The notes below the pieces were generated by a model. The model worked only from the letters and a program-made list of their open reading frames with translations. It was not told the origin of the DNA and made no database searches. A program made the translations under genes and the position numbers. Of a DNA stretch of 52,208 nucleotides, positions 10,536 through 52,134 are shown one piece after another. How positions within the stretch are numbered: the stretch's first letter is position 1; every line of letters starts with the position of its first letter. The DNA is from Spirochaetota bacterium (lineage in GTDB: Bacteria; Spirochaetota; Spirochaetia; Treponematales; Rectinemataceae). Location: contig JAKLFE010000033.1 in the NCBI GenBank assembly GCA_022711355.1, forward strand, positions 1-52,208, in the 5' to 3' direction.

Positions 10536-11312
10536 TTAGGCCCGCCGGCTGGCGACCGAGGCGTAGAAGTAGGCCGACAGGATGTCGACGAGCTCGGCCG
10601 AGAACTCGAGCTTGGCCACGACCTTCTGGACCCCCGAGGGGAGGCGGGTCGCGCTCTGGATCGAGCCGCCGACGTTGAAGCGGTATTTCTGGAAGAAGAG
10701 GTTGAAGGTCGCCTTGGTCCCGACGGCGACGTCGGGGGAGCGGAGGGGCATGAGGAACTCGAGGCGGTCCACGCCGACGGAGAAGAGGGCGAGCTTCTGC
10801 GGCTCGGCGCCCGCGGACATGACGGCGTAGTTGTTGAAGCCGAGCTTCTTGGAGCTGTCGGGGTTGATCTGCACCGACTTGCCGCGGAAGTCCGACCACT
10901 CGGCCTTGAGGCGCTCGAGGCGGAGGAGGTGGCCGCCCAGGAGCTCGGCGAGGGCCGGGGGGATGGGCTTGAAGTCGCAGACGACGAGGCCGACGCAGTC
11001 CCGGCCCTTCATCATGCCGACCGCGGCGATCTGGCAGCGGCAGAAGACCTTCTCCGGCTCGCGGGCGTTGGGGGGCTGGACCGTCAGGGTGAGGCCGGCT
11101 AGAGCGTTCTTGTAGCGCTGGAAGAAGGCGACCTCGTCCTTGGTGAAGGAGCCGAGGAGGACGGCCCTCGTCATGGAGAGCTGGTAGGGGGCGCAGGCGA
11201 GGGTATAGGTATCGACCTTGAGGGCGGTCTGGGATTGGACGATGCCCGTCGACGAGAGCACGTAGGGGCTGAAGGACACGACGGCGTCCTTGAACTGCTC
11301 CTCGTAGCTCAT
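10536..11312 (-). CDS. PilZ-like protein of unknown function
   Basis: 258 aa from the ATG at 11312, which has AGGAAA before it and overlaps the upstream stop as ATGA; an ATG at 11330 with GGAG is also possible. There is no signal peptide, so it is cytoplasmic. The C-terminal half reads like a PilZ-type barrel (VGVDRLEFLMPLRSPD, then GTKATFNLFFQKYRF), and the N-terminal half resembles the extra domain that precedes PilZ in some spirochaete proteins. The classical RxxxR and D/NxSxxG signatures are not evident, so c-di-GMP binding is uncertain. It ends the long minus-strand operon. No clear terminator is visible in the 54-bp convergent gap. Confidence 0.6.
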   Translation of the reverse strand: MSYEEQFKDAVVSFSPYVLSSTGIVQSQTALKVDTYTLACAPYQLSMTRAVLLGSFTKDEVAFFQRYKNALAGLTLTVQPPNAREPEKVFCRCQIAAVGMMKGRDCVGLVVCDFKPIPPALAELLGGHLLRLERLKAEWSDFRGKSVQINPDSSKKLGFNNYAVMSAGAEPQKLALFSVGVDRLEFLMPLRSPDVAVGTKATFNLFFQKYRFNVGGSIQSATRLPSGVQKVVAKLEFSAELVDILSAYFYASVASRRA

Positions 11313-12097
11313 CGTTTCCTGTTTTTGCATACATCTCCACTATGCCCGTAGAAGGCGCCGCGGTCAAGGCTGGTGCCCGGGACGGCGCCGACGAGGAAGA
11401 CCGCGGGGAGCTTTCCCGGGAGCCAGGGCCTCGCCCGCCATTCCGAGACGGGTGCGGATCGGAGCGCCTCGGCGGGCCCGGTGAGGTCGACGGCCACGCA
11501 GAGCCGCGTCCCCGGGGAGAGGGAGGCCAGGCAGTCCTCGAGGAGGCGGGCGTTGCGGTAGGGGGTCTCGATGAAGATGCGCGTGGCCCCGTCGGCGCGG
11601 ACGCCCGCGTCGATCCGCGACAGGGCCGAGCGCCGGGCCGCGGGCTCCTGGGAAAGGTAGCCGAGGAAGGAGAAGCGCTGCCCGTCGAGGCCCGAGGCCG
11701 CCAGGGCGAGGAGGAGGGAGGAGGGGCCGACGAGGGGGACGACCCGGGCGCCCAGGCCGTGGGCGAGGGCGACGAGGGCCGAGCCCGGGTCGGCCACGCA
11801 GGGCAGGCCCGCCTCCGACAGGAGGCCGAGATCCTCGCCCGCCTTCAGGGGATCGAGGAGGGCGGGCAGGGCCTCGGGGGGCGTGTGCTCGTCCAGGCGC
11901 TCCAGCGTCGCGGCCCGCGCGGCCTCCGGGTCGAGGATCCGCCCGAGGAGGCGCCAGGCCGCCTTCTCGCCCTCGACCACGAAGCGGCGCAGGAGACGGA
12001 TTCGGGCCAGGGCCTGGGCGGGGAGGGCAGCCTCGGGGGGGGACTCGGGGTCGAGGAGGTTGGGGACGAGGTAGAGGACGCCGAGCTTCCCTTCCAT
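11309..12097 (-). CDS. RsmI-like SAM-dependent methyltransferase (tetrapyrrole methylase fold)
   Basis: 262 aa from the ATG at 12097, preceded by GAGGTG; a GTG at 12103 is less likely. The core motifs of the RsmI family are present: LLSEAGLPCVADPGS, VVPLVGPSSLLLAL, and SGLDGQRFSFLGYLS followed by an ETPYRN motif. RsmI methylates the 2'-O of C1402 in 16S rRNA. The start (GVLYLVPNLLD) differs from the typical LYVVATPIGN, so this may be a paralogue with another target. It overlaps the PilZ-like gene (ATGA) and is packed against the FAD-subunit gene. Confidence 0.8.
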   Translation of the reverse strand: MEGKLGVLYLVPNLLDPESPPEAALPAQALARIRLLRRFVVEGEKAAWRLLGRILDPEAARAATLERLDEHTPPEALPALLDPLKAGEDLGLLSEAGLPCVADPGSALVALAHGLGARVVPLVGPSSLLLALAASGLDGQRFSFLGYLSQEPAARRSALSRIDAGVRADGATRIFIETPYRNARLLEDCLASLSPGTRLCVAVDLTGPAEALRSAPVSEWRARPWLPGKLPAVFLVGAVPGTSLDRGAFYGHSGDVCKNRKR

Positions 12098-27166: not shown

Positions 27167-29143
27167 ATGGCAAGGAATGAAGAAGGCGCCGAGGCCCCGA
27201 AGGCGGCTCGGGCCCGGCCCGGCAGCGGCTCAGCGAAGCGCGTCGCCGAGCTCGAAGCCCTCGTAGCTCGCCACCAGGACCTCTACTACAACGGCCAGCC
27301 CGAGCTCAGCGACGCCGAATTCGACGAGCTCTGGGACGAGCTGGCCGCCCTCGACCCGGGGAACGCCCTGCTTTCGCGGGTCGGCGCCGACCTCGCCGAC
27401 GGCTGGCCCAAGGCTCGGCACCTCATGCCCATGGGCAGCCAGGCCAAGGCCTCCAACCCCGAGGATTTCCTCGCCTGGTGCGCCAAGACCGCCCATCCGG
27501 AGTACCTGGTCCAATACAAGCTCGACGGCGCGAGCCTCGAGCTCCAGTACGAGGAGGGCCGCCTCCTCCGGGCGGTGACCCGCGGCGACGGGGAGGTCGG
27601 GGACGATATCACGCCCAACGCCAGGCGGATGCGCGGCGTCCTTTCCTCCCTGCCCGAGCCCTTCTCCGGCGGCCTGCGCGGCGAGGTCCTCATGACGCGC
27701 GAGGTCCACGCCTCGAAGTACGCCGACAAGGCCAACTGCCGCAACGCCGCCAACGGCCTGATGAAGCGCAAGGACGGGCTCGGCTCCGAGGACCTCCTCG
27801 TCCTCTGCTACGACGCCCTGGGCAGCGTGCCCGCGCGGGGGCAGGGCGATCTCTTCGGAGGCCCCGCCCGCGTTTCCCCCTTCTCCGACGAGCTGCAGAA
27901 GCTCGAGTGGCTCTCCCGCATGGGCTTCCAGACCGCACCCCTGCGCCTGTGCGCGACGGGCGAGGAGGTCGTCGCCTACCGGGCCCAGGTCATGGACCTC
28001 CGGCCCTCCCTGCCCTACGACATCGACGGCCTGGTCGTGAAGGGCAGGGACATCGACCCCGAGGACATGGCCCGCTCCCGGCCCGACAAGCAGATAGCCT
28101 TCAAGTTCAGCCTCGAGGAGGCGGTCTCGACCCTCCGCGCCGTCGAGTGGAGCGAGTCCGGCTCCCTCTACACGCCCATCGGCATCATCGATCCCGTGCG
28201 CCTCGCGGGCACGACCGTCCAGCGCGCCAACCTCTGCAACACGAACATCATCGGCTCCCTGGGGCTCAAGCTCGGCAGCCGCGTCGTCATCACCAAGCGC
28301 GGCGAGATCATCCCCAAGATCGAGGGCCTCGTCGAGAATCCCCCCGGAGCCGCCGAGATCGAGGCGCCCGCCCGCTGCTCCTGCGGCGCCGAGCTCGTCG
28401 ACGAGGGCACGAGGCTCTACTGCCCCAACGAGGGCTGCCCCAAGAAGGAGCTGCACCGCCTGGAGAAGTGGCTCTCGGTCCTCGACGTGCGCGACTTCGG
28501 CGTGGGCATCATCGGCAAGCTCCACCAGTCCGGCCGCGTCCGCGAGATAGCCGACCTCTACGGCCTGGGGACCGAGGAGCTGGCCGGCTACGAGCGCATG
28601 GGCGAGAAGTCCGCGGCCAAGATCCTGCGAAACCTCGCGGCCAAGGCCGAGGTGGGCCTCGCCCAGTTCGTAGCGGGCTTCGACATCGAGGGCATCGGCG
28701 AGCTCCTCGCCCAGAAGGCCGTGGACGCGGGCTTCGACAGCCTGGACAAGCTCAGGGCCGCGAAGCTCGAGGAGCTCGCCCGCGTCGACGGCTACGCGGA
28801 GATCACGGCGAGGACCCTCGCCGAGGGCCTGGCCTCCCTCGGCCCCGCGATGGACCGCCTCCTCGCCACCGGGGCCCTTCGCATCAAGGCCCCGGCCCGG
28901 GGCGGGGCCCTCGCGGGCAAGAGCTTCTGCTTCACCGGGGAGCTCGCCTCCATGAAGCGCCCCGAGGCCGCCGAGCTCGTGAAGGAGTTAGGCGGAACCG
29001 TGAAGGCCTCCGTCACCAAGGGGCTGTCCTACCTCGTGACGAACGACCCCGGCTCGGGCTCCGACAAGAACAAGAAGGCGGCGGCCTACGGCGTCGCCCT
29101 CATCGACGAGGAGGCCTTCCTCGCCCTGGTCGGGCGGCGATGA
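27167..29143 (+). CDS. ligA: NAD+-dependent DNA ligase LigA
   Basis: 658 aa, usual length. LigA seals nicks in replication and repair using NAD+. Domains in order: Ia NAD-binding (YYNGQPELSDAEFDEL), adenylation domain with the active-site Lys118 in YKLDG, OB fold, a four-Cys zinc finger (CSCG and CPNEGC), helix-hairpin-helix repeats, and a C-terminal BRCT domain (SFCFTGELASMKRPEA). The ATG at 27167 is chosen because upstream in-frame sequence lies across the divergent promoter region. Its stop overlaps the next gene (ATGA). Confidence 0.96.
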   Translation: MARNEEGAEAPKAARARPGSGSAKRVAELEALVARHQDLYYNGQPELSDAEFDELWDELAALDPGNALLSRVGADLADGWPKARHLMPMGSQAKASNPEDFLAWCAKTAHPEYLVQYKLDGASLELQYEEGRLLRAVTRGDGEVGDDITPNARRMRGVLSSLPEPFSGGLRGEVLMTREVHASKYADKANCRNAANGLMKRKDGLGSEDLLVLCYDALGSVPARGQGDLFGGPARVSPFSDELQKLEWLSRMGFQTAPLRLCATGEEVVAYRAQVMDLRPSLPYDIDGLVVKGRDIDPEDMARSRPDKQIAFKFSLEEAVSTLRAVEWSESGSLYTPIGIIDPVRLAGTTVQRANLCNTNIIGSLGLKLGSRVVITKRGEIIPKIEGLVENPPGAAEIEAPARCSCGAELVDEGTRLYCPNEGCPKKELHRLEKWLSVLDVRDFGVGIIGKLHQSGRVREIADLYGLGTEELAGYERMGEKSAAKILRNLAAKAEVGLAQFVAGFDIEGIGELLAQKAVDAGFDSLDKLRAAKLEELARVDGYAEITARTLAEGLASLGPAMDRLLATGALRIKAPARGGALAGKSFCFTGELASMKRPEAAELVKELGGTVKASVTKGLSYLVTNDPGSGSDKNKKAAAYGVALIDEEAFLALVGRR

Positions 29144-29832
29144 GCCTCCTCGCCAGGGCGAAGGCCGCCCTCCTCCTCCTCCTCGCCCTCCTGGCCGCCG
29201 CCGGCCTCGCGGCTTACCTCTACCTCGGGAGCGCGGGCCGCGCCCAGGCGCGGCGCATCGCCGAGCTCGAGTCCCTGGCTTCCCGCCTGACCGCCGGGAC
29301 CGTGCCCGCGCGCTTCATGCTCCTCTCGCGCGAGGGCGGCTCCCTCCGCTTCCGGCTCAGGCTCTACGACCTCGCCGGCGCCGAGCTCGCCCTCCTCGAG
29401 GAGGAGCTGCCTGGCAGGGAGCTCTACCTCGACTTCCTCCTCCTCCCCCTGCCGGGGCAGGGGCCCTCCGAGTCCTGGCTGGCCTTCCCCTTCCGCCTCT
29501 TCACCGACGAGCTGCCCGCCGCCGACGGGCCCCGGCTCTTCGAGGCCTACGACCGCGGCGGCTTCCCCGCCATCTTCGGCGGGGCCGAGGGCAGCGAGGC
29601 CGCGGGCGGCTCCCCCGCGGCCCGCGAGGCCCTCGTCGAGCTCTTCGCCCGGGCCCGGGAGGCCGCCGAGCTCCCCCCCGAGCCCGGGAAGGCCGCGCCC
29701 GGCCGGGGCTCCCGCGACCGGGCCTACGGCTCGGCGCTCCACGACGTCTCCGCCCTCGCGCGCTTCGAGCTCGGCGTCACCTACCGCGTCGTATGCCGGG
29801 CGAAGGGCGGCATCGAGATCATGGAGGACTGA
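29140..29832 (+). CDS. Single-pass membrane protein, first of two related genes
   Basis: 230 aa. One N-terminal membrane segment (residues ~9-29) is followed by a mostly beta domain outside the cell. Shared blocks with the next gene are GRELYLDFLLLPL, FPFRLFTDELP and the C-terminal YGSALHDVSALARF region. I do not recognise the family. It is translationally coupled to ligA (ATGA), but a functional link to DNA ligation is unlikely; it is probably just co-transcribed. Confidence 0.7.
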   Translation: MSLLARAKAALLLLLALLAAAGLAAYLYLGSAGRAQARRIAELESLASRLTAGTVPARFMLLSREGGSLRFRLRLYDLAGAELALLEEELPGRELYLDFLLLPLPGQGPSESWLAFPFRLFTDELPAADGPRLFEAYDRGGFPAIFGGAEGSEAAGGSPAAREALVELFARAREAAELPPEPGKAAPGRGSRDRAYGSALHDVSALARFELGVTYRVVCRAKGGIEIMED

Positions 29833-29834
29833 CG

Positions 29835-30761
29835 ATGAGCGACACCATCGGCCTCGAGCGCCTCGGCTCCCTGAAGCCCCTGCTCTACGGGCTCGCCGAC
29901 CTCCTGTCCTTCCTCTTCGGCAGCTCCCTCGGACTCTGCGTCGCGGCGGCCCTCCTCGCCCTAGCCGCGGCCCTGAGGCTCGGCGGGAGCCTCGCGGGGC
30001 GCAGGCTCGCGGCCAAGGCGGCGGGCGAGAGCTTCGGGCGCGGCGCGGCCCTGGGCCTGGCCCTGCGCGAGCTGGCGGCGATGGGCCTGCGCGCCGCCGC
30101 GGCCCTGCCGGCCCTCCTCGCCGCGGCCGTGGCGGCCCTGGGCGTCGTCGCCCTGGCCGACTCCTCGCGGCGCCTCGACGAGTACCTCGCGGGCCGCGAG
30201 CGCGTCGCCGAGCTCAGGGCCACGGTCCGGAACCTCGAGCGCCGCTGCCGGGCCATCGACGTCGCCGTCCTGGAGGCTTCGGGCGGCCGGCTCCGGGTCG
30301 AGCTGGCCTACTACGACTATCGTTCGCCCAACGCGCCCGCGAGGAGGCAGGAGCTCGTCCTCCCCGGCCGCGAGCTCTTCATCGACGCGATCGTCTGCAA
30401 CTTCGACTACTCGGAGATCGCCGCCGGACGCGCCGTGAACCTGGCCATACCTTACCGGGCCTTCACCGACCTCCTGCCCCAGTCCGAGGGCCAGGAGCTC
30501 GGCCTCCTCGACGCCCGGGGGGTACCCCTCATGTACCGCAGGCCGCCCGAGGGGCTCTACGGGATCGAGGCGGCGGCCTACGACGAGCGGCTCGCCGAGC
30601 TGTCCGCCATACTGCGCAGCGACGAGGCCGCGCGCGGCGAGGGCATCGTGCGCAGCCTCTACGGCAACGCCGTGCACCGCCTCGTCCGCGCGGGCGACCG
30701 CTTCTCGGTCTGGGTCGAGCAGTCGGGCGGCCTCAGCATCAGGGAGGACAGGGCCTTCTGA
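29835..30761 (+). CDS. Membrane protein, second of two related genes
   Basis: 308 aa from the ATG at 29835, which has GGAGG (29823-29827) at 7-nt spacing. The N-terminal third holds two or three hydrophobic segments (LGLCVAAALLALAAAL and ALPALLAAAVAALGVVAL), followed by a short coiled region (ERVAELRATVRNLERR) and a beta-rich domain. That domain repeats the blocks of its neighbour: GRELFIDAIVCNF, IPYRAFTDLLP and SLYGNAVHRLVRAGDRF. It is thus a diverged paralogue with an added membrane domain. Function unknown. Confidence 0.7.
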   Translation: MSDTIGLERLGSLKPLLYGLADLLSFLFGSSLGLCVAAALLALAAALRLGGSLAGRRLAAKAAGESFGRGAALGLALRELAAMGLRAAAALPALLAAAVAALGVVALADSSRRLDEYLAGRERVAELRATVRNLERRCRAIDVAVLEASGGRLRVELAYYDYRSPNAPARRQELVLPGRELFIDAIVCNFDYSEIAAGRAVNLAIPYRAFTDLLPQSEGQELGLLDARGVPLMYRRPPEGLYGIEAAAYDERLAELSAILRSDEAARGEGIVRSLYGNAVHRLVRAGDRFSVWVEQSGGLSIREDRAF

Positions 30762-41890: not shown

Positions 41891-43756
41891 ATGGATTTCA
41901 ACGACCAGAACGAGCCGCCGCAGCGGAGGCAGGGTCCCGAGGGTCCCGCGAGGGGCAGCCGGGCCGCCCTCGCGCTCTTCCTGAGCCTCGCCGTGCTCTT
42001 CTCCGTCTTCTTCGTGTTCAACGACAAGGGCGGCCCCGCGGAGATCAGCTACTCCTCCTTCCTCTCCCACCTCGAGCAGGGCGAGGTGCACAGCGTCCGC
42101 ATCCTCGATCAATCCGAGATCCAGGGCACGCTCAAGGGCAAGACCGGGGCCCAGGCCCTCTTCCGCACCACCATCCCCTACGCCGACCTCGACCTCCTGG
42201 CCAAGCTCCGCGACAAGGATGTCCAGGTCTCCGGAGCCTCGAAGGGCGCGAGCCCCTGGCAGATACTCGTCGAATTCGTGCCCTGGTTCTTCGGCTTCTT
42301 CATCATCTGGATCATGCTCAGGCAGGTCCAGGGCAACAACAAGGCCTTCACCTTCGGCAAAAGCCGGGCCAAGCGCTACGTCGAGCCGGCCAAGAAGGTG
42401 ACCTTCTCCGACGTCGCCGGCCAGAAGGAAGCCAAGTACGAGCTCCAGGAGGTGGTCGACTACCTCAAGAACCCCCAGAAGTTCGTGAAGATGGGGGCCC
42501 GGATCCCCAAGGGCGTCCTCCTCGTCGGCATGCCCGGCACGGGCAAGACCCTCCTGGCCAAGGCCGTGGCGGGGGAGGCCAACGTCCCCTTCTTCCACAT
42601 GTCGGGCTCCGACTTCGTCGAGATGTTCGTCGGCGTGGGCGCGAGCCGGGTGCGCGACCTCTTCGACCAGGGCCGCCGCTCGGCGCCCTGCATCATCTTC
42701 ATCGACGAGCTCGACGCCGTGGGCCGCACCCGGGGCGCGGGCTACGGCGGGGGCCACGACGAGCGCGAGCAGACCCTGAACCAGATGCTCGTCGAGATGG
42801 ACGGCTTCGACACCAAGGACGGGGTCATGATCCTCGCGGCCACCAACCGCCCCGACGTCCTCGACCCGGCCCTCCTCCGGCCCGGCCGCTTCGACCGCCA
42901 GGTCGTGGTCGCCATGCCCGACGTCAAGGAGCGCGAGGCCATCCTCTCCATACACATGAAGCGGATACCGGTGGACGGCGAGGTCGACGTGTCCCGCCTG
43001 GCGCGCGCCACCCCCGGCACCTCGGGGGCCGACCTCGCCAACCTCGTCAACGAGGCGGCACTCTTCGCGATCCGCAAGGACAGGTCCACGGTCACGATGG
43101 CCGACTTCGAGGAGGCCCGCGACAAAATCCTCATGGGGGTCGCCCGCACGAGCCTCGTGATCACCGACGAGGAGAAGCGCGCCACGGCCGTCCACGAGGC
43201 CGGCCACGCCCTCATCCACTACCACCTCGCGCACTCCGATCCCCTGCACAAGGTCACCGTCGTGCCCCGGGGCAGGGCCCTCGGCCTAACCCTCTCCCTG
43301 CCCGAGAAGGACGTCTACTCCCGCTCCCGCTCCTGGCTCGACGACCGCATCGCCGTCATGTACGGAGGATTCGCCGCCGAGAGGATCGTATATGGCGAGA
43401 CCACGACGGGCACCGCCCAGGATATCAGGCAGGCCACGGACTTCGCGCGCAAGATGGTCTGCGAGTGGGGCATGGCCGACGAGCTGGGGCCCGTCGCCTT
43501 CGGCGAGGAGGAGGAGCCCATCTTCATCGGCAAGGAGATCGCCCAGCACAAGGACTACTCCGAGGATACCGCCCGCCGCATCGACGCCGCGGTCAAGGGC
43601 ATCCTCGAGCGGGCCTTGGGCCGGGTCATGTCCCTCCTCACCGAGCACCGCGACCAGCTGGTCAAGCTGGCCGACGAGCTCGTCCTCAAGGAGACCCTCG
43701 AGGACGCCGACGTCCGGCTCCTCCTGGGCTTCCCTCCCCGGGAGGCCAAGGCCTAG
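41891..43756 (+). CDS. ftsH: ATP-dependent zinc metalloprotease FtsH
   Basis: 621 aa. FtsH is a membrane AAA+ protease that degrades misfolded and regulatory proteins. It has an N-terminal helix ([17 protein letters not shown]), a periplasmic domain, and a second helix ([13 protein letters not shown]). These are followed by the AAA module with Walker A GMPGTGKT (213-220) and the second-region motif RPGRFDRQV, and by the zinc site HEAGH (435-439). AAAGGAG lies 12 nt before the ATG at the end of tilS. The next gene begins one base after its stop. Confidence 0.97.
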
Positions 43757-43757
43757 C

Positions 43758-45695
43758 ATGGCCGCGCCCCGGCTCCGCGGCCTCATCCTCGGCCTGGCCC
43801 TCGCGGCGGCCGCGGCGGCGCCGCCTCCCCTCGCCGCGGCGCCCGACGAGGCATCGCGGGCCCTGGCCCGCGCCCTTTTCGACGAGGCCCTGTCCCAGTC
43901 CGAGGCCGGGGCCTGGGCGGCCGCCGCGAGCCTCCTGGCCGAGGCCCGGGCCCTCGACGGCTCCGATTCCGACATCCGCTACCTTTCCGCCCTCGCGGCC
44001 CGGGCTGCCGGCCTCGGCCGCGAGGCCGCCCTGGCCGAGCTCGACGCGGCCCTGGAGGCGGGGCGCTTCTCCGACTGCGACGAGGCCGAGGCCCGCCTCC
44101 TCGCCGGGGAGCTCCTCGCCGACCTGCGCCGCTGGCCCGAGGCCCTCCGCGTCCTGCCCCCGGCCGCCCCGGGCTCGGCCCTCGAGCCGGGGCGCCGCCT
44201 CGTCCGGGCAAGGGCCTTCCTGGGCCTCGCCGACGAGGCGGCCTACGCCTCCGAGCTCGCCGAGGCCCTCCGCCGCTATCCCGAGGATCCGCGATTCCCC
44301 CGCCTCCTCTTCTCGCGCCTGCCGCCCTCCTCGGCGCCGGCCGCCCTGCGCCCCCTCGTCGAGCTCGCTCTTTCGCGCGTCGCGCGCCTCGGCGCCGCCG
44401 ACCCCGAGCTGGCGGCCATCGCCACGCCCTTCATGCCCGACCGCGCGGCCGCCCTCGACGCCCTCAGGGCCTTCCGGGCCGCCGGGGGCTCGAGCCCGGC
44501 CGCGACCCTCCTCGCCCTGGAGCAGGGCCTGGTCGGCGAGGCCGGAGCGGCGGCCGAGCTCCTCTCCGGAGCCAGGCCCCCCCGCCTCGAGGAGCTGCGC
44601 CGCGCCCTCGCCCTGGCCCGGAACGAGGCTGGCCGCGACGAGCTCGCCGCGGCCCTCGGCCGCTACGAGGGCATGATCGAATCGGACCCCGACGGCGACG
44701 GCATCGTCGAGGCTCGGACCGCGGTGGCGGGCGGCCTCGTCCTCTCCTACTGGCTCGACGCCGACCAGGACGGGCTGGCCGAGCTGGAGCTCTCCTTCTC
44801 CGACGGCCTGCCCCGCTCCGGTCTCGCCCGCAGCTCTGGCGCCGATATCGGCTTCGACTACGCGGCCTATCCCCTGCTCTCCTCGGCCACGCTCCGCGGG
44901 CCCGGGGGCGCCTCCTCCTACGAGCTCGCCCAAGGCGAGCTCTCCTACGCCCCCCTGCGGATATCGAGTATCGCGGGCAGGGGCCGCTCCTCGATACTCC
45001 TCCCCGAGCCGACGGGAGAGCCGGCTCCGAGCCCCCGCGCCCTCGTGGCGGCCTCCCTGGTCCGTGAGGCCGAGACCGAGGAGGGGCTCGAGCGCCTCTA
45101 CCTCGACCGCGGCATTCCCGAGCGGCGGGAGATCGTCCGCGATGGCCGCCTCCGCGCCGTACGGGAGTATCGCCTCGGCCGGCCCGAGCTCGAGCGCGCC
45201 GACCTGGACGGGGACGGCCGCTTCGAGACCGAGCGCGGCTTCGCTCCCGCCGGCGCGGGCGCCCAGGCCGGGCCCTTCGGGGCCGAGCCTGTCGCCTGGG
45301 CGCGGGTGGACGCGGACGGGGACGGGATTTTCGAGTACCGTGAGGAGAGCGCCTTCCCCTTCCGGAAGGAATGGGATCTCGACGGGAACGGCTCGATCGA
45401 CGCGCGGAGCTTCGAGCTCCGGGACGGGAGCCTGCGCTGCGAGTACTCCTCGCGGCTCGACGGCCGTTTCGACGAGGTGCTCCTCCTCCGCGGCGGCGAG
45501 ATCGTCGCCCTCGAGAAGGGGGGCCGTCCCCTCGACCTCGTGCCCGACGCCAATCCGGCTCTTTGCTGGATCGGCCGCAAGCCCTTCGATCTCGGTCCCG
45601 AGCTCCCCGAGGGCGAGGGTATCTTCCGTTCGAGGGGCATTCGCTACCGGCTCGTCAGGGCCGGATCCCGAGCCTTCGCCGAGGTGCTGCCGTGA
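43758..45695 (+). CDS. Exported helical-repeat protein with calcium-binding-like DxDxDG motifs
   Basis: 645 aa. A signal peptide (LILGLALAAAAAAPPPLAAA) is followed by ~280 residues of helical, TPR-like sequence. After that at least five acidic loops occur: DPDGDGIVEA (~310), DADQDGLAE (~335), DLDGDGRFE (~483), DADGDGIFE (~519) and DLDGNGSID (~541). Loops of this form bind Ca2+ in EF-hand, dockerin and thrombospondin-3 repeats. The C-terminus is beta-rich. I know no named family with this layout. It starts one base after ftsH and overlaps the protease gene by GTGA. Confidence 0.75.
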   Translation: MAAPRLRGLILGLALAAAAAAPPPLAAAPDEASRALARALFDEALSQSEAGAWAAAASLLAEARALDGSDSDIRYLSALAARAAGLGREAALAELDAALEAGRFSDCDEAEARLLAGELLADLRRWPEALRVLPPAAPGSALEPGRRLVRARAFLGLADEAAYASELAEALRRYPEDPRFPRLLFSRLPPSSAPAALRPLVELALSRVARLGAADPELAAIATPFMPDRAAALDALRAFRAAGGSSPAATLLALEQGLVGEAGAAAELLSGARPPRLEELRRALALARNEAGRDELAAALGRYEGMIESDPDGDGIVEARTAVAGGLVLSYWLDADQDGLAELELSFSDGLPRSGLARSSGADIGFDYAAYPLLSSATLRGPGGASSYELAQGELSYAPLRISSIAGRGRSSILLPEPTGEPAPSPRALVAASLVREAETEEGLERLYLDRGIPERREIVRDGRLRAVREYRLGRPELERADLDGDGRFETERGFAPAGAGAQAGPFGAEPVAWARVDADGDGIFEYREESAFPFRKEWDLDGNGSIDARSFELRDGSLRCEYSSRLDGRFDEVLLLRGGEIVALEKGGRPLDLVPDANPALCWIGRKPFDLGPELPEGEGIFRSRGIRYRLVRAGSRAFAEVLP

Positions 45696-47596
45696 GGATC
45701 TCCCGCCGCCCCCCCTCCTCCATTCGCGGCAGGAACCTCCTCCTCGCCGCGGCTATCCTTTCCCTCGGCGCCTGCGGGGGCCTGCCCAAGCCCCCCAAGG
45801 ACGCCGCCGGGAAGCTGGGCCCCTCCTACGGGAGCATGAAGCTCGAGGAGCTCTCAGCCCTCTCGACCGAAGAACCCGAGGCCTTCCTCGAGGCCTTCGC
45901 CGCGATCTCCAGGAGCCCCCGGGCGGCCGGGGCCACGGCCGGCCCCGGGGATCCCGCCGCCCTCGAGCCCCTCGCCGGCGCGGCCTCGGCCAAGATCTAC
46001 GCCGCCTATCGCGAGGCCCTCGGGGCCAAGGATTACCCGAGGGCCCGCGCCTCGATCGAGAGCCTGACCGCCCTGGCCGCAGACGCCTTCACCGCGAAGA
46101 CCCTCGCGCCCGAGGCCGCCGAGGCCGCTTCCCGGGGACGGTCCATCGTGGCGGAGCTCCATGCCGCCGAGGCCGAGGACTACTTCGCGCGCAAGCTCTC
46201 CACGCCCGCCTTCCTGGCCTATCGCCAGGCCCTCCGCGAGGGCCGGGCCGAGGGCCCCGGCTTCGATCCGCGGGAGCTCGGCATCTGGGCCTCGCGGGCC
46301 CTCGCGGCCAAGGACCGCTCCGCGCTCAAGGCCTTCGGCGAGGCGGCGAAGGCCGCCGGCATCCCCCTGCCCGAGGGGGCCGAGGGCTTCAGCTCCTCGC
46401 GCGACTCGGTGAGCCTCATGAGCAAGGGCGTGGTGACCGTCCGCGTCGATCGGGGGATGAAGATCCAGCAGGGCGTGGGCGTGCCCGATCGTGTCCTCGG
46501 CTCGGCCTTCTTCGTCGATCCCGCGGGCTACCTCCTCACGAACTACCACGTGATCGAGAGCGAGGTCGATCCCGGCTACGAGGGCTACTCCCGGCTCAGC
46601 ATCCGCATCGCCGAGGATCCCGAGGCCCGCATCGCCGCCAAGGTGGTCGGCTGGGACCGCATCCTGGACCTCGCCCTCATCAAGGTGGACCTCAAGCCGG
46701 CCTACGTCTTCTCCCTCGCCGACGACGAGAAGCTGGCGCCCGGCGACAAGATACTCGCCATCGGCTCCCCCGTGGGGCTCGAGAGCACCGTCACCTCGGG
46801 CATCGTCAGCGCCGTCGGGCGCAAGCTCTTCCAGGCCGGGCAGGCCGTCCAGGTGGACGCCGCCCTCAATCCCGGCAACTCCGGGGGGCCCCTCATCGAC
46901 GAGGAGGGCCGGGCGGTAGGCATCGTCTTCGCCGGCCTCAACCAGTACCAGAACCTCAATTTCGCCATATCCTCGGCCTGGGCCCTCCGCGTCCTCCCCG
47001 AGCTCTTCCGCGGCGGCGAGCTGAAGCGGGCCTGGCTCGGCCTCTCCCTGGCCGAGAGCCACGGCGGCCTTGAGGTCGTGTACCGCCACCCCCGGGCCGC
47101 CGAGGGAATCGAGGGCGGCGACCGGCTCCTGGCCCTCGGGGGCGAGCCTATCAAGGAGATCCCCGAGGCCCAGGCCCTCATGGCGGGCCGGAGCCCGGGA
47201 AGCCTCGTCTCCCTCCGGCTCGCCGGGCCCGGCGCGGGGGAGGGGGAGCGCATCCTCCTCCGCCGCCTCGGGGAGCGCCCCTTCTCGCCCATCGAGGACG
47301 CCTTCGGCCTCGATCGCCGGGACCGCCTCCTCGCGCCCCTGTTCGGCATGGAGGCCGCGAGGCAGCCGGGCAGCTTCCTCGAGCCGGATTCGTACAGCGT
47401 CGTGCGGGTCTGGCCCGGCACCATAGCCGACGAGGCCGGCCTCTCGGCGAACGATCCCTTCGCCCTCCGCCGATTCTTCCTCGACGAGGAGAGCCGCGCC
47501 GCCGTGATCCAGATCCGGGTCAAGAAGCGGAAGGCCGGTTTCCTCGAGAGCATCCTCCAAATCCCCGCTCCCCTCGAGGTTTCCGCCTTCCTCTAG
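45692..47596 (+). CDS. Trypsin-like (S1C/DegP-type) serine protease lipoprotein
   Basis: 634 aa from the GTG at 45692, overlapping the previous stop as GTGA. A lipoprotein signal with LGAC indicates anchoring in the envelope. About 220 residues of helical sequence precede the protease domain. The triad is complete: His286 (LTNYHVIES), Asp326 (ILDLALIKVD) and Ser397 (NPGNSGGPL). PDZ-like sequence follows (GGDRLLALGGEPI), and a second degenerate PDZ may lie near WPGTIADEAGL. The helical N-terminus distinguishes it from HtrA. It may process proteins with its coupled neighbour. Confidence 0.87.
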   Translation: MRISRRPPSSIRGRNLLLAAAILSLGACGGLPKPPKDAAGKLGPSYGSMKLEELSALSTEEPEAFLEAFAAISRSPRAAGATAGPGDPAALEPLAGAASAKIYAAYREALGAKDYPRARASIESLTALAADAFTAKTLAPEAAEAASRGRSIVAELHAAEAEDYFARKLSTPAFLAYRQALREGRAEGPGFDPRELGIWASRALAAKDRSALKAFGEAAKAAGIPLPEGAEGFSSSRDSVSLMSKGVVTVRVDRGMKIQQGVGVPDRVLGSAFFVDPAGYLLTNYHVIESEVDPGYEGYSRLSIRIAEDPEARIAAKVVGWDRILDLALIKVDLKPAYVFSLADDEKLAPGDKILAIGSPVGLESTVTSGIVSAVGRKLFQAGQAVQVDAALNPGNSGGPLIDEEGRAVGIVFAGLNQYQNLNFAISSAWALRVLPELFRGGELKRAWLGLSLAESHGGLEVVYRHPRAAEGIEGGDRLLALGGEPIKEIPEAQALMAGRSPGSLVSLRLAGPGAGEGERILLRRLGERPFSPIEDAFGLDRRDRLLAPLFGMEAARQPGSFLEPDSYSVVRVWPGTIADEAGLSANDPFALRRFFLDEESRAAVIQIRVKKRKAGFLESILQIPAPLEVSAFL

Positions 47597-47597
47597 C

Positions 47598-47614
47598 GCC
47601 TGGCGGCGCCAGGC
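47598..47614 (+). terminator. Possible terminator hairpin after the protease gene
   Basis: GCCTGGC and GCCAGGC form a 7-bp stem with a 3-nt loop. The nearest T-run (TTTTT) is about 17 nt further on, so it is a weak candidate. Confidence 0.35.
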
Positions 47615-47627
47615 CTACCCTCCGACC

Positions 47628-47655
47628 TTGCTTTTTCATCGCCAGGCTTTATAGT
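47628..47655 (+). promoter_or_regulatory. Possible promoter of the chemotaxis operon
   Basis: TTGCTT (47628-47633) and TATAGT (47650-47655) are spaced by 16 nt. The -10 is good and the -35 is weak. The start to the ATG at 47680 is ~20 nt and contains GGAGG. Confidence 0.45.
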
Positions 47656-47679
47656 GGATTCACGGAGGCAGCGATTTCA

Positions 47680-48009
47680 ATGGAACACGAGAGCTCTCCG
47701 ACGATCGTCAAACCCTCAGGCTCGCTGATGGTGGACAAGGCCGCCCCGCTCCGGGACGAGCTCCTCGCCGCCCTCGACGCGTCGGACGCTATCATCCTCG
47801 ACCTTTCCCTGGTCGAGGATATAGACCTCGCCTGCCTGCAGGTGCTCTACGCCGCAGCCCGGTCGGCCTCGGCCCGGGCGAAGCGGCTGCGGTTCCAGGG
47901 TACGGTGCCCGCCCGCGTGGCGAAGCGCCTCGCGGCCAGCGGCCTCTCCCGGGGAAGCTCGGATCGGGCCGAGGACCTCGAGGCCTCGCTCGTCGATTTC
48001 ACGGCTTGA
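47680..48009 (+). CDS. STAS-domain protein at the head of the che operon
   Basis: 109 aa, a single STAS domain of the MlaB/SpoIIAA fold. The loop that normally carries the phospho-accepting Ser or Thr (D-S/T-A/S) reads DIDLACLQVL, with Leu50 in that place, so classical phosphorylation by an anti-sigma kinase is not possible there. Small STAS proteins are often encoded before cheA in spirochaetes and other bacteria; their role in the receptor array is not settled. The cheA start lies 11 nt after its stop. Confidence 0.82.
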   Translation: MEHESSPTIVKPSGSLMVDKAAPLRDELLAALDASDAIILDLSLVEDIDLACLQVLYAAARSASARAKRLRFQGTVPARVAKRLAASGLSRGSSDRAEDLEASLVDFTA

Positions 48010-48019
48010 GGGGAGACCG

Positions 48020-50155
48020 ATGCTCGATAAATTCAAGGCGACGTTCCGAGAGGAGGCCCTCGAGCTCCTCAGCCAGCTCGAGGATACCCTCCTCGAGCTC
48101 GAGTCCCAGCCCCTGAACGGGGAGCTGATCAACGCCGCGTTCAGGGCCATCCACACGATAAAGGGCTCCTCGAGCATGTTCGGCTACGACTCGGTCTCCA
48201 AATTCACCCACGAGGTGGAGACGGTCCTCGACAAGTGCCGCAACGGGGAGCTCCCGATCACCAAGGACTTCATCGGCCTCACGCTGAAGGCCCGCGACCA
48301 TATCCGCATCCTCCTCGACCGCGAGGGCCCCCCCGAGCCCCCGATCGCCGAGGAGGGCGAATCCCTCCTCCAGCGCTTCCGCGACTTCGCCCAGGGCGGG
48401 CCGGGGCCCCGCCCGGCCAAGGCCGGCCGCGGCGCCGAGGGCGCGGGCGGCGGAAGCCCCTCCGCGGCTCCGGCCGCCGATGCCGAGGCCGAGAGCGCGA
48501 CCTACCGGGTCGTCCTCAAGCCGAAGCCGGAGATCTTCAGGAACGGGACGCGGGTCCTGAACCTCGTCCAGGAGCTCGCCGAGCTCGGCCAGGCCGGCGT
48601 GTTCCCCCATACCGAGTCGATCCCCCCCCTCGAGGAGCTCGATCCCGAGCGCTGCTACTGCTCCTGGGACGTCCTGCTCACCACCGACAAGGGCACGAAC
48701 GCGATACGCGACGTCTTCATCTTCGTCGACGACCTCGTCGAGCTCGGGATCGAGCCCGTCGCCGAGCAGCTCGCCGCCGAGGGGGGCAGGCGCCTGGGCG
48801 AGATCCTCGTCGAGCGGGGGGCCGTCAGCGCCGAGGATCTCAGGCAGGCCCTCGGATCCCAGAAGCGCCTGGGAGAGGTCCTCGTCGAGAAGAACATCGT
48901 CTCGAGGCCCCAGGTGGAATCCGCCCTGGTCGAGCAGGAGCACCTGAAGAAGGTCCAGGAGCGGGCCGAGACCTCCGTCGGCTCCATCCGCGTCGCGAGC
49001 GACAAGCTCGACGCCCTCGTCGACCTCGTCGGCGAGCTCGTCACCCTCCAGGCCCGGCTCTCGCGCACCTCCTTCGACCTCAAGGACGGGCCCCTCTCCT
49101 CCATAGCTGAGCAGTACGAGCGCCTGATCTCCCAGCTCCGCGACAACACCATGTCGATCCGCATGCTCCCCATCGGCTCGACCTTCAACAAGTTCCGCCG
49201 CGTCGTGCGCGACCTCTCCCTCGAGCTGGGCAAGGAGGCAGAGCTCCTCACCGAGGGGGCCGAGACCGAGCTGGACAAGACGGTCATCGAGAAGCTCGGC
49301 GATCCCCTCGTCCACATCATCCGCAACTCCCTCGACCACGGGATCGAGCTGCCGGCCAAGCGCGAGGCCGCGGGCAAGCCCCGAGCGGGCCATATCCTCC
49401 TGGCGGCGCGGCATTCGGGGGCCTACGTCCTCATCCAGGTCTCCGACGACGGCAAGGGCCTGGACCGGGACGCCATCCTCGCCAAGGCCATCGAGCGGGG
49501 CATCGTCTCCCCCGGCCAGGACCTCTCCGACGCCGAGGCCTACCAGCTCATCTTCGCGCCGGGCTTCTCCACGGCCAAGGTCGTGACCCAGGTCTCCGGC
49601 CGCGGGGTGGGCATGGACGTCGTGAAGCGGGAGATCGACTCCCTCGGCGGCTCCGTCCAGCTCGCCTCCGAGGCCGGCAAGGGCATGACGGTCACCCTCA
49701 AGATCCCCCTCACCCTGGCCATCATCGAGGGCCTCCTCGTGCGCATCGACAAGGAGTTCTACGTCGTGCCCCTCTCCTCCGTCGACGGCTGCATCGAGAT
49801 ACCCAAGGAGGAGCTCGCCGCCAAGGGGGAGCGCAAGATCATCAGCTACCGCGACGAGCTCGTGCCCTACGTCGACCTGCGCACCTTCTTCGAGTCCGGC
49901 GGCGAGGAGCCCTCGATCCAGCAGATCGTCATCGCGGCGGCCCAGGACTCGCGGGTGGGCTTCATCGTGGACCAGGTCGTCGGGGACTACCAGACGGTCA
50001 TCAAGCCCCTCGGCCGCATGTACAAGGACGTCGAGGGCGTCTCGGGGGCGACGATCCTCGGCGACGGCAGGGTCGCTCTGATCCTCGACGTGAACCGGCT
50101 CGCGCAGGTGGTCCAGCGCGAGGGGCTGCGGCGGAATTCGGCCGCGGGGGCCTAG
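48020..50155 (+). CDS. cheA: Chemotaxis histidine kinase CheA with MshEN-like insert
   Basis: 711 aa. CheA autophosphorylates at His and passes phosphate to CheY and CheB. Domains: P1 (Hpt) with His45 in AIHTIKGSSS; P2-type CheY-binding region (~160-245; ERCYCSWDVLLTT); an unusual segment at 258-306; P3 dimerisation (ASDKLDALVDLVGELV); P4 kinase with the N box HIIRNSLDHGIE, DDGKGLD and GRGVGMDVV; and P5 CheW-like domain (VPLSSVDGCIEI). The insert between P2 and P3 holds two tandem 24-residue units starting RLGE. The gene lies between STAS and cheR in an operon. Confidence 0.96.
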   Translation: MLDKFKATFREEALELLSQLEDTLLELESQPLNGELINAAFRAIHTIKGSSSMFGYDSVSKFTHEVETVLDKCRNGELPITKDFIGLTLKARDHIRILLDREGPPEPPIAEEGESLLQRFRDFAQGGPGPRPAKAGRGAEGAGGGSPSAAPAADAEAESATYRVVLKPKPEIFRNGTRVLNLVQELAELGQAGVFPHTESIPPLEELDPERCYCSWDVLLTTDKGTNAIRDVFIFVDDLVELGIEPVAEQLAAEGGRRLGEILVERGAVSAEDLRQALGSQKRLGEVLVEKNIVSRPQVESALVEQEHLKKVQERAETSVGSIRVASDKLDALVDLVGELVTLQARLSRTSFDLKDGPLSSIAEQYERLISQLRDNTMSIRMLPIGSTFNKFRRVVRDLSLELGKEAELLTEGAETELDKTVIEKLGDPLVHIIRNSLDHGIELPAKREAAGKPRAGHILLAARHSGAYVLIQVSDDGKGLDRDAILAKAIERGIVSPGQDLSDAEAYQLIFAPGFSTAKVVTQVSGRGVGMDVVKREIDSLGGSVQLASEAGKGMTVTLKIPLTLAIIEGLLVRIDKEFYVVPLSSVDGCIEIPKEELAAKGERKIISYRDELVPYVDLRTFFESGGEEPSIQQIVIAAAQDSRVGFIVDQVVGDYQTVIKPLGRMYKDVEGVSGATILGDGRVALILDVNRLAQVVQREGLRRNSAAGA
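48791..48937 (+). other. Tandem MshEN-like motif inside CheA
   Basis: Residues 258-281 fit RLG-x6-G-x6-L-x3-L-x2-Q exactly, and 283-306 fit with Asn for Gly and Val for the first Leu. One Lys separates the copies. The pattern resembles the paired c-di-GMP-binding motifs of MshE-type N-terminal domains of secretion ATPases. Binding is inferred, not shown; the spacer is shorter than I would expect in MshE. Confidence 0.6.
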
Positions 50156-50156
50156 C

Positions 50157-51035
50157 ATGGCGAACGGAAAGGACGAGGAGCTCCTCAGGCCGGTGCCCGC
50201 CTCGGCCACTCTCTCCCAGGCGGACTTCTCCCGGCTCGCGAAATACATCGAGAGCGAGCTCGGCATCCGCATGCCGGACACGAAGCGGGTCATGCTCGAG
50301 TCCCGTCTGCAGAAGCGCGTGCGGCACTTCAAGCTCTCGGGCTTCGGCGAATACGTCGACTTCGTCTTCTCGCCCCAGGGCCGGGAGTCGGAGCTCATCA
50401 ACATGATCGACGCGGTCACGACCAACAAGACCGACTTCTTCCGCGAGGCCGACCATTTCGACTACCTCCTCGAGTCCATCGTGCCCGAGGCCGAGCGCCG
50501 CTTCGGCTCCGGCATCGCCAAGCCCTTCAACGTCTGGTCCGCCGGCTGCTCGACGGGGGAGGAGCCCTACACCATCGCCATGGTCCTCGAGGAGCACCGC
50601 GACAAGGAGCCCCGCTTCAGCTACCGGATCTTCGCGAGCGACCTCTCCACCCAGGTCCTCGGCAAGGCCAAGGAGGGGGTCTACGCGGCGGAGAAGGCCG
50701 AGGTCGTGCCCATGAGCTTCAAGCGCAAGTACATGCTCAGGGGCAAGGACCCCCAGGCCCAGCTCGTCCGCATGAAGCCTGAGCTCCGCTCGCGCCTCTC
50801 CTTCGCCCGCATCAACTTCATGGACGACCGCTATCCCGCCGCCGAGGATTTCGACGTGGTCTTCTGCCGCAACGTCATCATCTATTTCGAGCGCAAGATA
50901 CAGGAGCAGATCCTCGGCAAGCTCTGCCGCCACGTGCGTCCCGGCGGCTGGCTGGTGCTCGGGCACTCGGAGACGCTCACCGGGATGGACGTCCCCCTGC
51001 GGAACGTCGCGCCCACGATCTATTGCCGTACCTAG
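50157..51035 (+). CDS. cheR: Chemotaxis protein methyltransferase CheR
   Basis: 292 aa. CheR adds methyl groups from SAM to glutamates of chemoreceptors. The N-terminal helical domain ([16 protein letters not shown]) is followed by [15 protein letters not shown], the SAM site [32 protein letters not shown] and the C-terminal [13 protein letters not shown]. The ATG lies one base after the cheA stop, so the two are coupled. Confidence 0.96.
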
Positions 51036-51051
51036 CCGAGCGGGGGTGAGG

Positions 51052-52134
51052 ATGCCGAAAGCCATACGGGTGCTGATCGTGGACGATTCCGCCGTCGTCC
51101 GCCAGACGCTCAAGGAGATACTCGACTCCGACTCGGAGATCGAGGTCATGGGGACGGCAGCCGATCCCATCTTCGCGCTCAAGCGCATGGAGTCCGACAA
51201 GCCCGACGTCATCATCACCGACGTCGAGATGCCCCGGATGGACGGCCTGACCTTCCTCCGAGGCGTCATGGAGAAGGATCCCGTCCCCGTGGTCGTCTGC
51301 TCGAGCAAGACCGAGGAGGGATCGGAGAACGCCATGCGGGCCCTCGAGTACGGCGCGGTGGAGATCATCCAGAAGCCCAAGCTCGGCACGAAGCAGTTCC
51401 TCGAGGAATCGCGGATGCGGATCTGCGACGCGGTCAAGGCCGCCGACCTGAGCCGGCGCAAGCTCGGCAAGCCCCGGGAGCGGGCCCCGATCCCCGAGGT
51501 CGCACCCAAGCTGACCGCCGACGTCATGCTCCCCAAGCCCGACTCCGGCCACGTCTTCGTGGAGACGACCGAGAAGGTCGTCGTCGTGGGCGCATCCACG
51601 GGCGGCACCGAGGCCCTCAAGGAGTTCCTCGAGGCCTTCCCCGAGGACGCGCCCGGCATCGTCATCGTGCAGCACATGCCCGAGCACTTCACCGCCGCCT
51701 TCGCCATGCGCCTGGACGGGCTGTGCCGCATCAACGTCAAGGAGGCCGAGGACAACGATACCGTGATCCGCGGCCGCGCCCTCATAGCCCCGGGCAACCG
51801 GCACACCCTCCTCAAGCGCTCGGGCGCGCGCTATTATGTCGAGGTGAAGGAGGGGCCCCTGGTCTGCCGGCACAGGCCGAGCGTAGACGTGCTGTTCCGG
51901 TCGGCCGCCCGCTACGCGGCGCGGAACGCGGTGGGCGTCATCATGACCGGCATGGGCGACGACGGCTCCCGGGGCATGAAGGAGCTCCACGACGCCGGCG
52001 CCTATACGATCGCGCAGGACGAGGCCTCCTGCGTCGTCTTCGGGATGCCCAACGAGGCCATCAAGCTCGGCGGGGTCGACATGGTACTTGGCCTGGGCGC
52101 GATCGCCCAGGAAGTGCAGCGCCGCGCCCGCTGA
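51052..52134 (+). CDS. cheB: Chemotaxis response regulator and methylesterase CheB
   Basis: 360 aa from the ATG at 51052; a GTG two codons earlier is an alternative. CheB removes methyl groups from (or deamidates) chemoreceptors when phosphorylated by CheA. The receiver domain has DDS at 11-13 and phospho-Asp57 ([11 protein letters not shown]). The linker (~125-172) leads to the esterase domain with catalytic Ser182 (GASTGGTEA), His208 (QHMPEHFT) and Asp303/304 ([10 protein letters not shown]). Encoded between cheR and cheY. Confidence 0.95.

Follow-up and report, generated by a model that had tools for sequence, protein, structure and literature searches.

A short-spacer relative of the MshEN cyclic-di-GMP-binding module between the P2 and P3 domains of a spirochaete CheA

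Can the central kinase of bacterial chemotaxis, CheA, read an intracellular second messenger directly? The question is raised by a contig of 52,208 nucleotides from a Spirochaetota bacterium (GenBank assembly GCA_022711355.1, contig JAKLFE010000033.1; hereafter the window), which encodes a CheA histidine kinase close to its end (Table 1). An earlier note on this DNA had described a tandem motif in the kinase resembling the MshEN module, known for binding cyclic di-GMP (c-di-GMP) in MshE-type ATPases. Our analysis strongly supports homology of residues 258-306 to the MshEN motif pair, and we put the probability that they form a short-spacer MshEN homologue letting c-di-GMP change kinase activity at about 0.5. 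The P1, P3, P4 and P5 domains were matched by the Pfam models Hpt, H-kinase_dim, HATPase_c and CheW, all above cut-off. A Pfam scan of CheA did not match a P2 domain; the P2-like stretch is modelled by AlphaFold2 with block means of the predicted local distance difference test (pLDDT) of 88-95.

The two 24-residue units reported between P2 and P3 are indeed there, at residues 258-281 and 283-306 (48791-48937). Unit 1 is an exact RLG-x6-G-x6-L-x3-L-x2-Q. Unit 2 begins with RLGE, terminates in Q, and departs from the consensus twice, at the middle Gly (Asn292) and at the earlier of the two later Leu positions (Val299). The key residues R1, L2, G3, L17, L21 and Q24 are filled in both units, save for this Val at position 17 of unit 2. 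The counterpoint already raised, that the units lie one residue apart and that the second lacks the Gly, is real, and both traits are common to close relatives. A basic residue, Lys or Arg, occupies spacer position 282 in 174 of the 183 relatives whose module is 49 residues long.

The relationship to MshEN was assessed by family profiles, sequence matches to solved structures and profile-profile comparison. The NCBIfam model NF053729 (MshE-related c-di-GMP motif) matched CheA with 50.4 bits (expectation value E 1.4e-13, cut-off 38), and this is the only match above cut-off in the 4.1 Mb assembly, which is 79% complete. The match is split in halves, with unit 1 aligned to profile positions 26-53 and unit 2 to positions 1-26. 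The profile search proposed earlier was therefore positive for NF053729 and negative for the Pfam MshEN model PF05157, which gave nothing on CheA at E <= 1; this silence carries little weight because two CheAs with a canonical spacer were missed by PF05157 as well. When residues 246-320 were compared with PDB sequences, PilF (6.8e-11) and MshE 5HTL (1.5e-5) were matched, and the first 13 of the 16 matches were PilF, MshE or PilB chains; the last three (E 0.47-0.65) were two cullins and one PilB. The alignment with 5HTL is collinear, its sole gap being four residues at the spacer. When the short-spacer CheA inserts were compared, profile against profile, with 25 non-CheA MshEN pairs, the probability was 99 and the score 79, and all 20 column-shuffled controls scored 11.6 or less; the reference set was chosen by motif pattern, which favours a match, and the PDB search is free of this bias.

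The predicted fold agrees with these results. A Foldseek search with a model of P2-P3 (241 residues) gave alpha/beta matches that were all weak, with E above 0.001 throughout (S6, PII and CutA among the best), and the insert was therefore modelled alone. For residues 258-306 AlphaFold2 predicts a four-helix bundle, placed between P2 and P3, with pLDDT block means of 84-91 over the units, and the closest PDB structure to this bundle is 5HTL (Foldseek, VIA; root-mean-square deviation 1.7 over 53 columns). The structure prediction suggested earlier as a check thus yielded an MshE-like bundle and not a coiled coil. A chance or low-complexity likeness in a helical linker could draw on the silent Pfam model and on the Foldseek E of 0.21. 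It is nonetheless refuted by the NF053729 score, by PDB matches headed by PilF and MshE, and by a module free of internal insertions or deletions in 183 of 201 CheAs; a plain coiled coil or low-complexity linker is likewise ruled out by two structure models and the PDB sequence matches. Two further candidate domains on CheA were dropped: DUF4388 (E 0.0067, 16.9 bits, below the cut-off of 25) and FumaraseC_C, also below cut-off.

To place the module among its relatives, we aligned 201 CheAs, made up of P0001, 120 of 196 protein matches and 80 of 124 named loci, a sample that favours its own kind because both searches began from this CheA, and in which the two sets overlap and leave some duplicates. 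Every one of the 201 has the tandem, which is 49 residues long in 183 (164 distinct modules), 46 in 18 and 53 in none. By their labels, the CheAs with the short spacer come from Spirochaetes, Nitrospirae, Deltaproteobacteria, Deferribacterales and Magnetococcales. All 18 CheAs with the 46-residue module are labelled Magnetococcales or Candidatus Magnetaquicoccus; in Magnetococcales loci (L077, L082, L118 and others) this module lacks the last part of unit 1 together with its Gln, and unit 2 starts with Pro in 17 of the 18. In other genomes of the phylum, twelve regions were preselected for a CheA-sized frame and a full motif match; each encodes a CheA whose module, again between P2 and P3, is 53 residues long, and both units fit the motif pattern in 11 of them. 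A protein search from one such canonical-spacer CheA also returned MshEN-ATPases directly.

Across 247 CheAs the module lengths are 49 (183), 53 (39), 46 (18), 52 (3), 50 (3) and 54 (1) residues, and the spacers, always at the same place, are 6, 5, 4, 2 or 1 residues long and shorter. A tree was calculated from the P3-P5 cores of 243 of them (226 unique), the other four having short cores (three with 49 residues, one with 53). The 52- and 53-residue forms make up one group (41 members, support 0.999), and the 49- and 46-residue forms a separate one (198 members, support only 0.643), referred to here as the short-spacer branch. Among 30 loci from a sample of genomes of the same order, this CheA included (from a search with matches in 49 of 58 genomes), the module is found in 24, and its place is taken by a linker, mostly Ala/Pro-rich, in the other 6. 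More divergent CheAs with a 48-residue module, in which the helix-helix loop of unit 1 is one residue shorter, were seen in members of the same order (L141-L143). Genomes of the same phylum also hold many short frames (about 60-165 amino acids) that encode hardly more than a single MshEN-like motif pair and could be stand-alone c-di-GMP-binding modules, and two such pairs lie in tandem in L021 and L022.

Whether a module of this kind binds c-di-GMP has to be weighed separately, and a number of points weigh against it. The spacer of 1 residue and the motif of 49 stand in place of the canonical 5 and 53, and the middle loop Gly is present as Gly267 but not in both units; as neither the spacer nor the second Gly position conforms to the definition, the module is a variant of MshEN-like modules and not a canonical MshEN. 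All 198 members of the short-spacer branch have a short spacer (46- or 49-residue module). Within this branch, the unit 1 Gln at position 281 is retained in 138 CheAs (21 changes) and Arg or Lys at position 283 in 163 (12 changes), and the middle Gly of unit 2 is found in 71, and in none of 87 close relatives. Changing the middle Gly of VcMshEN to Leu or Ile is described as lowering binding. A perfect consensus is insufficient in the whole GSPII-A domain of PilF (PMC12002112), evidence that MshEN-like domains do not always bind.

These observations lend weight to a different explanation, in which the MshEN-derived module has lost c-di-GMP binding and holds P2 fixed relative to P3, either as a rigid spacer or as a bundle for protein docking. 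It draws on the invariably short spacer, on the frequent loss of the unit 1 Gln and the scarcity of the unit 2 Gly, and on the existence of non-binding MshEN-type domains, XpsE (PMC5013675) and PilF GSPII-A (PMC12002112), and we regard it as quite possible, if short of probable. The polar contacts argue the other way, being near-invariant with no obvious scaffold need: position 258 is Arg or Lys in 196 of the 198 CheAs, and Gly260, Gly285 and Gln306 are present in every one. Gln at the position of Gln306 extends to all 243 CheAs on the tree, whatever their spacer. Wang et al. (PMC5013675) named 12 contact positions, all of which are filled in 76 of 87 close relatives; they are also filled in this CheA, with Val for one Leu. 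Furthermore, departures from the consensus are tolerated by domains that do bind: PilF GSPII-C and GSPII-B have Lys or Leu at first positions and Pro at the first position of motif II (PMC11731258), GSPII-B with a single Gln-to-Glu change still has a dissociation constant of 460-950 nM, and Ile at positions 17 and 21 causes a small affinity loss in PilF (PMC12002112). In the same study, a cut-down GSPII-A again bound measurably when it carried R1 of motif II and the Q24 of each motif, and did so with high affinity when it also had G3 (PMC12002112); all four of these features are present in this CheA. Binding of c-di-GMP by the module is therefore plausible, and we hold the odds of direct c-di-GMP sensing by this CheA to be about even.

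If the short-spacer module does bind, the messenger would likely act directly on the kinase, since the MshEN relative sits inside CheA. In such a case c-di-GMP would lie between the two hairpins and contact Arg258, Gly260, Arg283, Gly285, Gln306 and, less certainly, Gln281. Ligand binding may then stiffen or turn the bundle or its last helix, which in the model reaches the start of P3, and a change in this helix could alter the geometry of the P3 dimer and the reach of P1 to P4. In this way the second messenger might tune phosphotransfer alongside receptor input. The uneven conservation, with Arg258 and Gln306 near-invariant and Gln281 and Arg283 not, and the position of the module next to the P3 dimerisation domain, would also suit the binding of a different nucleotide, or of c-di-GMP only across the CheA dimer with a half site on each protomer. 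We consider this improbable: the single-chain model already makes an intramolecular bundle that superposes on 5HTL, and the affinity of VcMshEN for cyclic GMP-AMP is about 660-fold lower than for c-di-GMP (330 µM against 0.5 µM; PMC7288161). A broader version of direct sensing can be offered as a tentative proposal, in which CheAs of several phyla form a class whose compacted MshEN sensor is locked onto the P3 helices, c-di-GMP is a direct allosteric input equal to the chemoreceptors, and the short spacer is an adaptation of affinity or switching and not decay.

The genome holds 31 GGDEF matches, which counts in favour of c-di-GMP binding by the module. GGDEF was also found in all 49 genomes checked (the source genomes of 50 named loci out of the 80); this co-occurrence discriminates poorly, because such bacteria commonly have GGDEF. 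Of the two PilZ-type proteins reported earlier for the window, one was found among the 34 open reading frames scanned with Pfam and the second was not. The classic PilZ model has 7 matches in the genome, none on this contig.

The gene order is STAS-CheA-CheR-CheB, and the contig ends at 52208. In relatives the operon continues with CheW, as confirmed for L045, and with a receiver-histidine-kinase protein, as confirmed for L042, L045, L050 and L053; this receiver-HisKA-HATPase protein lies 3' of cheA in them. Upstream, at 41891-48009 in the window, Pfam points to ftsH, then a trypsin/PDZ protease or other long frame, then the small STAS-like frame, and by eye L042, L045, L050, L053 and L120 have ftsH, a protease or long frame and often a small STAS-like frame 5' of cheA. 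Long frames at 43392-45692, 27478-29829 and 29793-30758, some perhaps shadow frames, had no Pfam match at E <= 0.01. P0003, labelled Spirochaetia bacterium, is nearly identical to this CheA (99% over the length of P0003). The same genome has a second CheA (contig 63, L165) with an Ala/Pro-rich linker before P3 and no match to NF053729, and a third CheA-like place on contig 82 (L166).

Table 1. Features of the cheA locus and of the window, with strand and supporting evidence.
Feature	Positions	Strand	Evidence or remark
cheA	48020..50155	+	711 amino acids; P1 - P2-like - MshEN-like module - P3 - P4 - P5
P1 (Hpt) domain, residues 7-86	48038..48277	+	PF01627, E 2.9e-16
P2-like alpha/beta domain, residues about 160-246	48497..48757	+	position and predicted fold
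MshEN-like unit 1, residues 258-281, RLGEILVERGAVSAEDLRQALGSQ	48791..48862	+	exact consensus; NF053729; predicted helices 259-265 and 271-278
One-residue spacer, Lys282	48863..48865	+	canonical MshEN spacer is 5 residues
MshEN-like unit 2, residues 283-306, RLGEVLVEKNIVSRPQVESALVEQ	48866..48937	+	NF053729
Last bundle helix, residues 296-320, predicted up to P3	48905..48979	+	AlphaFold2 models
P3 dimerisation domain, residues 322-380	48983..49159	+	PF02895, E 1.5e-10
P4 ATPase domain, residues 428-565	49301..49714	+	PF02518, E 2.1e-16
P5 CheW-like domain, residues 570-696	49727..50107	+	PF01584, E 3.4e-27
STAS-domain protein, immediately 5' of cheA	47680..48009	+	PF13466, E 8.8e-14
cheR	50157..51035	+	PF01739, E 6e-58
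cheB (receiver and methylesterase)	51046..52134	+	PF01339, E 9.1e-66; PF00072
PilZN3-domain protein	10536-11327	-	E 2.5e-7; sole PilZ-type protein among the window frames scanned

Histidine kinases are already known as c-di-GMP receptors, namely SgmT, the hybrid kinase ShkA and CckA, and in this respect they resemble the sensing proposed here for CheA. To our knowledge, none of the three is a CheA or binds the messenger through an MshEN module. Chemotaxis and c-di-GMP are otherwise linked by PilZ adaptors such as MapZ, which acts on CheR, by CheY-like Cle proteins and by chemoreceptors with a PilZ domain. A sensor within CheA, at the junction between the phosphate-carrying part and the dimer, would, if true, place the second messenger on the central kinase itself. 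In addition, the series of spacer lengths among CheAs represents a natural experiment on how far a still-working MshEN site can be compressed.

Like MshE of Vibrio cholerae (5HTL), the module has two 24-residue units with the same consensus, aligns collinearly and is predicted to form a four-helix bundle. It differs in its spacer of 1 against 5 residues and in the Asn replacing the second middle Gly; it also lies inside a kinase, between P2 and P3, whereas that of MshE starts an ATPase and is accompanied by an MshEN C-subdomain. The GSPII domains of Thermus thermophilus PilF (8PDK, 9G1W) likewise belong to a pilus ATPase. In the canonical-spacer CheAs (L153-L164, P0122-P0151) the module likewise sits between P2 and P3, but they differ in a 5-residue spacer (4 in three of them), in their separate tree branch, and in a middle Gly present in 41/42 and 40/42 of those with 52-54 residues; in the four scanned (L155, L156, P0138, P0143), NF053729 matched in one piece over profile positions 1-53. 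An association of MshEN with CheA is already in print, in one clause of Wang et al. 2016 (PMC5013675), whose available passages hold nothing on a short spacer or the P2-P3 place. In our literature search, no title or opening lines of an abstract reported a CheA with an MshEN module; within the reach of these searches, neither the short-spacer class nor its constant position between P2 and P3 has been described. A parallel from a spirochaete is CheWS of Treponema denticola, in which S-adenosylmethionine is sensed through a CheR-like domain on CheW (PMC10653840): there, too, a sensor of an intracellular metabolite is fused to a protein of the chemotaxis array, on CheW and not, as here, within CheA.
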